A model generated the notes under the pieces. That model was given only the letters and a program-made list of their open reading frames with translations, made no database searches and was not told the origin of the DNA. Shown piece after piece: positions 32,849-38,230 of a DNA stretch of 38,230 nucleotides (positions are counted from its first letter, which is position 1; each line of letters opens with the position of its first letter). The translations under genes and the position numbers were made by a program. Source of the stretch: Leptolyngbya sp. Heron Island J (GTDB taxonomy: Bacteria > Cyanobacteriota > Cyanobacteriia > Phormidesmidales > Phormidesmidaceae); the NCBI RefSeq assembly GCF_000482245.1, contig NZ_AWNH01000056.1:1-38230 (forward strand). The letters are read 5' to 3'.

Positions 32849-33364
32849 ATGGGGCTAGGAGCAATGCAAAGTTCCACCGATCAAAATCTAAACAGCTACA
32901 ACAATAAAGAAAAGTCTTTTAATCGAATCACGTCTCTGTGGTCGAGCATAAAGGCTGGACTCATCTACTTTGTGACTGTTTTTGGAGTCGGTTTTGGGTT
33001 GGGGGTTATTCGAGTTGTGTGGATCGAACCTCAATTGGGGGCCAGACTGGCTGAACTGTTGGAAATGCCTTTGATGTTAGTGGCCGTTGTTGTCGCTGCC
33101 TACTGGGTTGTAAAAAGGCTAGCTGTACCTCCTGTTTTATGGTCCAGGCTTAGTATGGGCTTGGTGGCCCTAGTTTGTTTGCTTTGTGCAGAATGGGGCT
33201 TGGTTCTGGGGCTACGAGGGCTTTCTATGACTGAGTATATTGCCACCCGTGATCCGATCGCTGGTACGGTCTACTACATCATGCTCTGCTTGTTTGCAGT
33301 GATGCCCTGGCTGATTGCTCGCAAAGATAGCCAGGCCCCTCCATCATCATCAAACCCTACTTAA
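32849..33364 (+). CDS. Four-helix integral membrane protein
   Basis: 171 residues with hydrophobic helices at about 36-58, 72-88, 102-122 and 138-155. The loop between helices 1 and 2, IRVVWIEPQLGARLAELLEM, is conserved in a widespread family of unknown function. The N-terminal 30 residues are polar (Asn/Ser/Gln-rich) and cytosolic. ATG 32849 has a weak AGG upstream; ATG 32864 is possible but has AGGAG too close. The paired TTCCTCA element upstream places it with ppsA and the CBS gene. Its last 8 nt overlap the convergent Uma2 gene. Biochemical role unknown. Confidence 0.8.
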   Translation: MGLGAMQSSTDQNLNSYNNKEKSFNRITSLWSSIKAGLIYFVTVFGVGFGLGVIRVVWIEPQLGARLAELLEMPLMLVAVVVAAYWVVKRLAVPPVLWSRLSMGLVALVCLLCAEWGLVLGLRGLSMTEYIATRDPIAGTVYYIMLCLFAVMPWLIARKDSQAPPSSSNPT

Positions 33365-33929
33365 CATCCAAAACAAAACCAGGTAGTATCTCCTCTCCTG
33401 AAATTGTAGTCGGACACTTCACTATCTCTACTGCCTGTCCCGGTCGGTAGACCTCAACGGTTTGCCCCTGAGGATTGATCAGCCACCCCAGCCGTAGACC
33501 ACTATCAAGATATTCCTGCATCTTTTCTTGCAGTGGCTTCAGCCTATCGCTCTCAGACCGCAGTTCAATTACAAAATCAGGGCAGATCGGTGGAAAATTT
33601 GTCTGTTGCTCACGGGTCAAACTATTCCAGCGTTCCAACGTCACCCATGCCGCATCAGGAGAGCGATCGCCCCCATTAGGTAGCTTGAAAATCGTTGAAG
33701 AGCTAAAAACTTCCCCTAGACCAGTTTGACGATTCCAGAACACCAAATCAGCAATGTAGTTTGCCTCTTGCCTGCCACTTTCACCACCCACTGGGGATAT
33801 AATGATTAACCTTCCTGTTGGACTCCGCTCCATGGCAATATCTTTGTTTGCCATGCATAACTTATAGAATTGCTCATGGGTCAGTCCCTGGACTAATGGC
33901 TCTAAATTTAGGCTAATAGCAGTCATCAC
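33357..33929 (-). CDS. Uma2-family protein (DUF820, PD-(D/E)XK fold)
   Basis: A 190-residue member of the Uma2 family, abundant in cyanobacteria and predicted to have a restriction-endonuclease-like fold. The start (LTHEQFYKLCMANKDIAMER) and GRLIIISPVGGESGRQEANY are typical. Catalytic candidates are D92 in RSPDAAWV and E122 in PDFVIELRSESD, followed by LQEKMQEYLDSGLRLGWLIN. The whole domain is present, so it is not truncated. Biological role is not established; many copies are carried per genome, and they move between strains. It stands alone, convergent with the membrane gene. Confidence 0.92.
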   Translation of the reverse strand: MMTAISLNLEPLVQGLTHEQFYKLCMANKDIAMERSPTGRLIIISPVGGESGRQEANYIADLVFWNRQTGLGEVFSSSTIFKLPNGGDRSPDAAWVTLERWNSLTREQQTNFPPICPDFVIELRSESDRLKPLQEKMQEYLDSGLRLGWLINPQGQTVEVYRPGQAVEIVKCPTTISGEEILPGFVLDVK

Positions 33930-34037: not shown

Positions 34038-37000
34038 TTATTCTCTGACTGACTGTACGTCTAAAGTTGCAGTTGCCGCTCGACCAAATTCTTCGGGGGC
34101 GTACTCTAGCTGCACCTCTGAACCGGGCCAGAGGAAGGTGCCGGGTGTGACTGAGCGGACGAGATAGTGCATGGTGTAGACACCGGTATCTAGATAGTCA
34201 GCGTAGGCGAGGATGCGATCTCGACCCAACTGCTGATAGCCAATATCCCAACTATCCTGCTGCGGTTGAAAATAGGCCGTGCTTGTCTGGAATGACGTGT
34301 CAATCGGCTCCAGACCCGCAGGCAACGGATCCGTAATCACCACATGGTTCACCGGATGGTCAGTGATAATTTCCAGACCCACATCAAACACCTGGCCTAC
34401 GTTCAATGAAAGATTCTCGTCTATCGAACTCAGGCCCATCCGGTAGAGCACGTCCGACTCATTTGCCGGACGAACCTGGCGGGTTACTCGTAACCCCTGC
34501 AAACGACCCGGAGCATTACCTTTTAGCCGATAGCGATAGGCTGTGAGGTAGTGCAATTCTCCTTCACCAGCTTTGCCCAATACCAAATCTGACTTACCCT
34601 CAGGCAGCTCTGCCATGGGAACAGAGAGTTCTAAACTAGGTTGCTGATAGCCCTGGAACTGTTGCTGAGCCAACTGCTTACCGGCAAGTTGTACCGTTGC
34701 TTCAAAGTTAGGCGGCTCCGGCAGCCGCTGAGCATAGGTCACCAGGGCACTCAGGGCCTGAGCATTGTTGTAAGGAAATCCCCAGCTACCGTCTTGTCGC
34801 AGGGCCAACAATCCATCGACGATCCGCCCCAACAGTTCAGGACTGCTCTCACGCGCCACAAACAGATTTAACACCTCAGCCTGGGCCGTTACAGGAAAAT
34901 GATACCAACCCCAAGTATCAGGCAGATTCACCGTAGCACTGCGGGCCGTTTCATAAACCGATTCCTGAATCTGATCTGTCAGGGTATCGGCTTCGGTTTG
35001 CCAATTATCTAACTGAGAAAGATAACGCGCCAACTTGATTTGCCCAACCCAGTCAAATTGTTCTTCATGATTGTCGTATAAATATGCCAGAAAGTCTTGT
35101 CGCACATCGCCTAGATCCGCCAGGGCCAACAGTGTTGCCAACCGAACCTGACTTTTACACTGGGGTGATACACACCAATCCACCTTCCCTGGATTTTTTA
35201 GCAGCTCAGATAGATACTTCTGGAGCTGGCTGATCAAGGCTCCATCCACTGAAAAACCAGCCGCTTTGGCCTGGGCTAGAGACCTGGCCGCATAGGGAGT
35301 GACAAAGGGATCAGACTGTTCCCCTCCGGGCCAGCTGGAAAAGCCACCGTCGGGTCGCTGTAGTATCTTGAGCCGCTGCAGTGCCTGATTGGCTTTGGCT
35401 TGTGGATCAAATCCATCCAGCACCTGACCATATTGCTGACTGAGAATTTGTAGATTAGCCGCAATGCTCAGCTGACTGGCCACCGTAGAGAGATTCGGTA
35501 ACGACTCAATCCACTCCATCTGCTGCACCGGTGCCTTGATATCCGTTAGCAGGGTGCTAGAGAGGGATACATCTAAGCCGCCCACATCCGACACCACATC
35601 TTTATCCACATTCACAGGAATGGTGACCGGGTCCGTAGTCGCCCCGGCATCCACCACCTGTTCCGTAATCGTCAACTGTTTTACAGCTAACGGTAGCTGG
35701 AAGCCGTCGCTCTCATCGCCTAGCTGAGTCTGAAATCGCACCTGAGCCTCTCCCGCTGCCGTTACTTCCATGGGGAAACGATAGGCCTCGGTGCCCTTTT
35801 TACCCCGTTCTGCCAAGGTAGTAGAGGCTGCTCCATCGCCAAAGCTGAGACCATTGATGGCATCTCCCTGGATTGTTATCCGTCCCCGCTGGTCTGTGGT
35901 GTTAGTCACCGACAAGCCAGCCATCATGCGATCGCCAGGTCGAGCAAACTGAGGCAGAATCGGTGCGGTAATTAAAGGCTGTGTAGCCACAAAGGTGGCA
36001 TCACTATTACCAAAGTGCAGATTGCCATCGGTGGCTACCACCATCACCCGCCAGGTAGTGAGATTATCGGGCAGGTTAAAGCTTACCTCCGCCTGACCCT
36101 GGTCATCCGTCAGCACTGCACCGTTGTAGTAGGCCAGCGCCTGGAAGTCTTTGCGAATGCGGGTACTCTCACCCCCTACGGAGAAACCGCCACCGTAGCC
36201 CCAGCCTTTTTCTAGGGGGGAACTTAGCGATCGCAGCACCACATCAGAGCGATTATCGGCAAAGCGGGTGGAAATGGCTTGCTCAGCATAGACCGTCTCC
36301 ACCAAATCCGGCGGACGATGACCGCTCAGCTGCAGCACCGCTTCATCCACCACCATCACCGTAAACTGACCGGCAACCGGCTGATCCTGCCCATCTTTGA
36401 GGGTGAGCTGGAGCGTTTGCTCGGTGGCCGGACGAATCTCCGCTTCTGTGGGTGAAACTTCTGGCTTGAGATAACGATCCGCCAGATCCACTTGAAATGG
36501 GGCAAACCCAATATTGGTAAGGTTTGCTAAATTGTTAACTTCAACCGTTTCCAGGGGCTCTCCCTGACGCACAAGTACCACCTCCACGGCAGCATTGGGC
36601 AGCATATCCGGGGTAACGGTGAACTGCACCTGGGGCGCACCACCGCTGACAGCAACCACCTCTTCATAAAGAGTGTTTTGGCGAACGACGGCAAAGTACA
36701 GTTCACCTGCCTCATAGGGGGACTGGATCATGGCCGTAGCCGTTTCTCCAGGGACATAGCTGTCTTTATCCAGCTGTACCTCTAGCCGGTTATTGTTGTA
36801 GCGACTGCCCCAATAAACCGGGCTAGCACCAGCCACCCAAATCCGGGTATCCGTAGCGGAGCTCTCATCACCAGCAAATGTGGCCCGAATGCGGTAAGAA
36901 CCTGCCTCTTGAGCCGTTAGCTGCACTGTTTTAGCCTCGTTACCAGAACGAACCGTGACCTCATCAACCAGCTCATATTCCACCTGATAGTTGGGGCTAA

Positions 37001-37926
37001 CACTGCCCTCAACCACCTCAGTGACGCTGCTATAATTCATCCGCTCCAGCGCCACCTGCACCGACTGACCAGACTGAGTCTGTCCCTGGGCATCGGTGAC
37101 AATCACCTCCACATCAAAGGGCTCTCCGGCATCGGCCACAAAGTCACTCTGCAAGCCGATCAACCGCTCCTCGGGCAGTACCATCACCTCTTTTGTATCG
37201 GCCACCGATAGATTGGAGACATCCACCACCTCAGCATCTAATCGGTAGGTCATGGGGTAGGGCAGGTCGTCCGTAATCTCTACTGAAAGCTGACTTTGCC
37301 CCTGGTCGTTCAGGGTTTTACTCGTCTCTAATACATCGCTAGAAACAACTGGCCGCTCCTCTGGCCAGTACCACCGACGCCCAAAGGAGAAATCCTCCCA
37401 GCCCTCTGGACGGAATGTGGTTGGCTGGCGGGTGACATAGTAATTAACCTCGCTGCCCTGGACAGGGGCTCCAAACAGATAGTTGCTCTCCACGTTAGCA
37501 GCAAGACTCCCGCCAGCCGTTGCCGTTTCCTGCTCAAGACTTAAGTCAACCTGGAAGTTAGGGGGCTTAAATTCGGCTACCCGTAGATTGCCTAGCAGTT
37601 CCACACCATTCTCGGCGGTAGCAACAACCGAGTAGTAGCCCAGGGGCTGATCGGCACCAATGTCCCATTTCACCGAAAAAGTGCCAAACTCATTGGTGGT
37701 TTGGGAACCTAGGTCAATTTCATCACCTTCAGGTCCCCTTAGCTTAATCCTGTAAGCCGTGTTTTTGTCCTGGCGTAGAATACCCTGTTTAAGATAATAA
37801 GCATTACCCGTCAGCCAGGCAGTTTCTCCTGGCTGATAGAGCAAGCGATCCGAAAAAACAGTGCCGCGAGAGATGGGCTGACTGCCTTCCCAACCTGCAT
37901 AGATGCCATAGCGATAACTGCCGGTG
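34038..37926 (-). pseudogene. Alpha-2-macroglobulin family protein, 5' part cut off by an IS630-type insertion
   Basis: About 1295 codons of a bacterial alpha-2-macroglobulin, an envelope protein that traps or resists proteases. The frame is homologous from GSYRYGIYAGWEGSQPIS (37925 downward), through VFSDRLLYQPGETAWLTG, and reaches an in-frame stop only inside the IS sequence, so the TTG at 37844 is not a real start. Visible: MG domains, a Gly-rich bait-like stretch (EKGWGYGGGFSVGGEST), the A2M domain (LPDNLTTWRVMVVATDG), a terpenoid-cyclase-like domain (LQRPDGGFSSWPGGE) and a C-terminal beta domain (VVITDPLPAGLEPID). No CxEQ thioester: that place reads SLPNLSTVASQLS. Homologues usually exceed 1600 residues, so several hundred N-terminal residues and the signal peptide are missing here. 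Confidence 0.85.
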
Positions 37927-38230
37927 TAATACCAATTCTGTAATTAAGAGCTACACATGGTAGAACTGAGGTGCAGCCTTCAATGTGAGCGATGTCAGGC
38001 ATTTACCATCTTGAAATTACCGAAAGTGAAGACGAGCTCAAAGCTCTCCTGAGAAGTCAAAAAACGGCCTCGTCAAAAGAGCGAATTCAATTCCTCTATT
38101 TGCTTAAAAGCGAACAGGCTTCGACAATCCAGCAAGCTGCCAAATTATTAGGTCGTCATCGGGTCACGGTCCAAAAATGGGCGAAGCGTTATCGAGACGG
38201 TCAGCTAGCGGGATTGTTGAGTCATAAGCC
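37927..38230 (+). mobile_element. Left end of an IS630-type insertion sequence
   Basis: The element begins at or next to the TA at 37927-37928, followed by ATACCAATTCTG. Alpha-2-macroglobulin coding sequence stops exactly here, and the transposase gene begins 65 nt further in. IS630-family elements insert at TA, which fits. The right end is outside the window. Confidence 0.75.
37992..38230 (+). CDS. IS630-type transposase, N-terminal part (runs off window)
   Basis: From ATG 37992 the frame is open to the window end (79 codons): MSGIYHLEITESEDELKALL, then SSKERIQFLYLLKSEQA. This is followed by a helix-turn-helix, TIQQAAKLLGRHRVTVQKWA then KRYRDGQLAGLL, the standard DNA-binding front of IS630-family transposases (helix-turn-helix plus R-x-G-x-x-G/L-L). 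The DDE domain is outside the window. It reads away from the interrupted alpha-2-macroglobulin gene. Confidence 0.85.
   Translation, partial: MSGIYHLEITESEDELKALLRSQKTASSKERIQFLYLLKSEQASTIQQAAKLLGRHRVTVQKWAKRYRDGQLAGLLSHK

Follow-up and report, generated by a model that had tools for sequence, protein, structure and literature searches.

A probable IS630-type insertion in the alpha-2-macroglobulin gene of Leptolyngbya sp. Heron Island J, and a second lesion in its 5′ half

The window analysed here is the complete contig C56 (bases 1–38230) of the 8.06 Mb draft genome of Leptolyngbya sp. Heron Island J. Near its right end lies the 3′ part of an alpha-2-macroglobulin (A2M) gene, which is followed by a TA dinucleotide and the truncated end of an IS630-type element (Table 1). 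MG2, bMG5, bMG6, A2M_BRD, A2M and bMG10 all scored above their Pfam cut-offs in this 3′ part, and the domain order of bacterial A2Ms (MG2, bait region, A2M, bMG10) is present in the A2M halves of this genome, in which a search found no other A2M or MG2 match. The sequence-only reading of this DNA had described about 1295 unbroken codons continuing past the nominal start as far as a TA, with a transposase of the opposite strand behind it. This description proved accurate: the frame is stop-free across 1296 codons, passes the mechanical start at 37844 and reaches the TA at 37927–37928, and a plus-strand frame begins at 37992. A gene for a putative endonuclease of the Uma2 family (33357–33929) adjoins A2M, and a similar frame was seen by eye beside A2M in Leptolyngbya sp. 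PCC 7375.

Table 1. Positions of the A2M part, the target dinucleotide and the element in the window (contig C56)
Feature	Position	Strand	Remark
3′ A2M part	34038..37928	-	1296 codons plus stop; equals the intact same-genus frame from codon 669 onward
Mechanical start (TTG) of the listed ORF	37842..37844	-	Homology extends upstream; no real start
TA target dinucleotide	37927..37928		Second copy on contig C77, at the opposite end of the element
Left element part, cut by contig end	37929..38230	+	Terminal repeat (A)TACCAATTCT; 302 bases
Transposase, N-terminal 79 codons (HTH domain), cut by contig end	37992..38230	+	HTH_23 match

Directly after the TA, ATACCAATTCTG starts at 37929. The element has terminal inverted repeats, with TACCAATTCT at one end and AGAATTGGTA at the other. 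The N-terminal part of its transposase matched HTH_23 above the cut-off, but its score with the IS630 model NF033545, 30.5 bits, stayed below the cut-off of 100. The C-terminal part, which is located on contig C77, reached 57.2 bits with DDE_3 (cut-off 28.6) and 113.7 bits with NF033545 (cut-off 100). Unbroken A2M frames of 1959 and 1962 codons were found in Leptolyngbya sp. PCC 7375 (G004) and Adonisia turfae CCMR0081 (G005), respectively, and, counted on the intact same-genus frame, codon 668 is the last before the break in Heron Island J and codon 669 the first after it. When the Heron Island J genome was searched with 668 residues of the PCC 7375 protein, the 5′ part was found at C77:471–2294 and 2288–2452 (85% and 82% identity). 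It lies directly behind the other element end, which occupies C77:1–470 and contains the C-terminal transposase part. On C77, the element finishes with GAGAATTGGTA, which is followed by TA and then by the codon preceding the break; the A2M halves meet around the duplicated TA, which belongs to one codon. The second element end, the repeated TA and the missing N-terminal part beyond the IS had all been predicted from the window.

With both junctions and both gene halves found, the interruption proposed in the sequence-only reading was confirmed, and we conclude with a probability of about 0.93 that an IS630-type insertion split the single A2M gene that was detected in the genome, the halves of which lie on C56 and C77. 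The join of the two contigs is based on homology and not on reads, and the middle of the element is absent between them. A cut-and-paste element of the IS630 type would have entered the TA at the boundary that corresponds to codons 668 and 669, with its transposase opposing the gene.

Further copies of the IS, which were also expected, were detected at other contig ends. The left end is present at five of them (C56, C60, C64, C71 and C72), with 301 identical bases, and the complete right end at four (C77, C78, C100 and C75), three of which are identical and one of which has a difference; one right-end partner is therefore unaccounted for. All five left copies share one internal end point and the four right copies a different one, each coinciding with a contig end, and the identity among the element ends could partly result from the collapsing of copies by the assembler. 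As a control, a 20-base end pattern was searched with up to three mismatches and was found at six places in the genome, compared with two for the reversed pattern. A 41-base remnant of the right end, devoid of the rest of the element, is located at C53:169827–169867.

Chance is excluded since five contig ends share an identical stretch of 301 bases and the other gene half stands beside the other element end. The split might also have been produced by the assembly, C56 and C77 having been misjoined to a repeat while the cell carries an unbroken gene. Both contigs indeed terminate within a repeat, and nine contig ends coincide with just two internal positions of the element. However, on each of the two contigs the boundary of the element lies exactly at the duplicated TA, inside a single codon, and random mis-joining would not produce such an arrangement; we consider this explanation most improbable. 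Recombination between element copies is a possible alternative to the simple pairing of C56 with C77. Pairing of the other element ends was also attempted, but the C78 flank matches PCC 7375 and A. turfae CCMR0081 only from about 2 kb onward, and the other left-end flanks carry no obvious partner frame. Only the C56/C77 pair is therefore established.

Complete elements of the IS630 family are about 1.1–1.2 kb long. Full-length siblings of the Heron Island J element were found in two other genomes (G039 and G054) and measure 1141 and 1142 bp; judged by these lengths, about 370 bases from the middle of the Heron Island J element are absent from the contig ends found. In both full-length siblings (loci L093 and L094), the transposase is spread over two frames, which may reflect programmed frameshifting. 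Protein matches to the C-terminal transposase part at E 1e-40 or better were obtained in 4 of 59 genomes, Heron Island J included, and the left end was found at the DNA level in none of the seven other genomes of the genus. Five insertions were compared by eye: the C56/C77 pair, those in G039 and G054, and the plasmid siblings L095 and L096. Duplication of TA fits all five if an extra terminal A or T is allowed at either element end. The three-base reading TAA/TTA, with the element written as TACC...GGTA, fits four of them and fails in L096; a strict three-base target duplication was dropped because this plasmid sibling does not conform to it when the element ends are defined as in the others. 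As far as the IS630/Tc1-mariner elements, including ISY100 of Synechocystis, are described in the available parts of PMC2170065 and PMC6400869, the present element resembles them in its DDE_3 transposase with an N-terminal helix-turn-helix, its short terminal inverted repeats and its TA target. It differs in that the Heron Island J copy is known as two ends only and in that its duplication is readable as either TA or TAA/TTA.

The IS insertion is not the sole lesion of the A2M gene, and it may not have been the first one. In an alignment with two same-genus genomes, the single draft assembly of Heron Island J exhibits a perfect tandem 14-bp duplication at C77:2279–2306, which shifts the frame at the lipoprotein-like signal LLLA(T/S)C. 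Reading from the ATG at C77:2368 departs from the A2M frame at the duplication and ends after 96 codons, and the remaining 606 codons of the 5′ half, as far as the element, contain no stop. In addition, 875 bases (C77:2446–3320) separate A2M from the neighbouring pbpC gene, compared with only 17 bases in PCC 7375. This stretch contains two small genes, one encoding a protein with DUF4926 and DUF2281 and the other a protein with DUF6883, which possibly form a toxin-antitoxin pair. The DUF4926/DUF2281 protein matched a VapB antitoxin model, though below the threshold. The split gene would probably yield no functional product: in its 5′ half the frame is shifted at the lipoprotein signal and the coding sequence is interrupted between the bMG3 and MG2 regions, and its 3′ half has no export signal.

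The timing of these events was estimated from a comparison with PCC 7375. The dN/dS ratios (Nei–Gojobori) were 0.079 for the C-terminal part (1291 codons), 0.108 for the N-terminal part (605 codons) and 0.096 for the intact pbpC (799 codons), and no stops were found in the 1296 and 606 codons of the two halves. The low dN/dS and the absence of stops indicate that the A2M gene was functional until recently, which supports the earlier suggestion of a recent insertion. With G014 as an outgroup, unique amino-acid changes in Heron Island J and PCC 7375 numbered 40 and 40 in the C-terminal part and 29 and 20 in the N-terminal part; the total excess amounts to 9 (standard error about 11), and the slight excess in the N-terminal part lies within the error calculated for the total. 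The polarised codon counts (synonymous and nonsynonymous, respectively) were 82 and 21 for Heron Island J against 126 and 14 for its sister in the C-terminal part, and 46 and 14 against 55.5 and 12.5 in the N-terminal part, nonsynonymous change being somewhat higher in Heron Island J at the codon level. Since G014 is near or beyond synonymous saturation (dS of about 2 or more, or undefined), the bound on the period of relaxed selection was computed from the amino-acid counts. The calculated share of the Heron Island J branch without constraint is about 1%, with an upper bound of about 3–4%, on the assumption that half of the synonymous distance belongs to this branch and that 50–75% of the changes can be polarised. 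From these comparisons we infer that both lesions are probably young relative to the split from the sister species.

The gene may have been dead already from the 14-bp frameshift or the upstream inserted stretch, in which case the element would have inserted into a pseudogene and changed nothing more. The perfect duplication, the 875-base stretch in place of 17 bases and the 29 against 20 amino-acid changes in the N-terminal part all speak for this order of events, to which we give a substantial chance, though somewhat less than an even one. The two halves nevertheless contain no other stops in 1902 codons, and their dN/dS is like that of the intact pbpC, which means that, irrespective of the order of the lesions, any pseudogene period was brief. 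The state of the gene could also be mixed or switchable, the 14-bp repeat or the element being gained and lost in the population and some cells retaining a working gene. Perfect 14-bp tandem copies could slip, and the past purifying selection shows that the gene was useful until recently, but one cell would have to be free of both lesions at once, and we regard such a state as very unlikely.

The 1296-residue A2M query gave matches in 16 of 39 genomes, Heron Island J included. The PDB matches of the intact relative, 4u48 (the best, E 4.8e-34), 5a42, 4ziq and 4rtd, are A2Ms of Salmonella and E. coli, and a lipoprotein-like signal was recognized by eye in several of the A2M relatives. The pbpC gene at C77:3335–5743, assigned to PBP_1c by TIGR02073 above the cut-off, agrees with its PCC 7375 counterpart in gene order and strand. 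The two genes are adjacent on C77 of Heron Island J, in PCC 7375 and in A. turfae CCMR0081, and non-adjacent in the other ten genomes that have both. With a limit of 1e-60 for pbpC, at which more divergent pbpC genes would be missed, both genes were found in 13 of the 39 genomes, A2M only in three (G012, G027 and G033), pbpC only in none and neither in 23; this co-occurrence gives a Fisher p of 7e-8, a value that ignores relatedness.

The thioester motif CxEQ was examined in an alignment of 20 rows, which comprised the longest frame per locus; the broken genes of G012, G019 and G030 were left out. The motif is missing at the aligned site in all 18 rows of the cyanobacterial A2M clade (Heron Island J and 17 others; the 18 rows stand for 17 different genomes since G026 and SIO2G6 are one record) and present in the two distant sequences of the alignment, those of G027 and a spirochaete. 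Bacterial A2Ms reside in the periplasm and trap proteases once their bait region has been cleaved, and Type I A2Ms trap them covalently via CxEQ and are encoded beside pbpC in a number of bacteria, according to the available parts of PMC4498604 and PMC5764988. Type II A2Ms, represented by MagD of P. aeruginosa, are described in the accessible text of PMC5764988 as devoid of CxEQ and encoded in the six-gene mag operon. The protein studied here resembles the Type I proteins YfhM of E. coli and SaA2M of Salmonella (4u48, 5a42, 4ziq) in the PDB match of its intact relative, the lipoprotein-like signal of several relatives and, in this genus, its pbpC neighbour, whereas the absence of CxEQ from the cyanobacterial clade sets it apart from them. 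In the absence of CxEQ and the presence of a bait-region domain it is similar to MagD; Type II genes, however, lie in the mag operon, and the neighbour here is pbpC. A thioester-less A2M clade accompanied by pbpC does not fit the Type I/Type II division as it is presented in the available parts of PMC5764988. Judging from the family, the intact protein would be a periplasmic lipoprotein which acts as a protease trap via its bait region, with no covalent thioester step, and is perhaps a partner of PBP1C. Among open-licence papers, screened by title and the beginning of the abstract, none was on cyanobacterial A2M.

Insertions of IS elements into genes are everyday events, and the present case is well supported and ordinary in this respect. 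What is new is the second lesion in the 5′ half, and the pairing of a thioester-less A2M with pbpC is the more interesting part. In Heron Island J, a conserved cyanobacterial A2M gene has been knocked out naturally and recently, and intact genes of the same genus are at hand for comparison. The proposed partnership of A2M and PBP1C is made testable by comparison among harmless cyanobacteria.

It could be speculated that the A2M gene is being shed, strong selection having lasted until recently and two independent lesions having then followed in a short time, although we consider this rather unlikely. If it were true, loss of the A2M/pbpC pair may be favoured once the protease or attacker guarded against disappears, and the decay of both genes in G019, a second genome of the family, would be relevant in this respect. 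A broken A2M gene was found in 3 of the 16 A2M-bearing genomes: Heron Island J, G019 and G030. Apparent A2M splits in G012 and G033, both at contig ends, and the frame of G032, which runs off the contig start, were not counted as breaks. The A2M frame of G030 is broken once. In G019 (contigs C86 and C21), two C-terminal stretches of A2M are kept behind an apparent signal peptide (stretches by tblastn, signal by eye) and the middle of pbpC is missing, both genes having been degraded by internal deletions.
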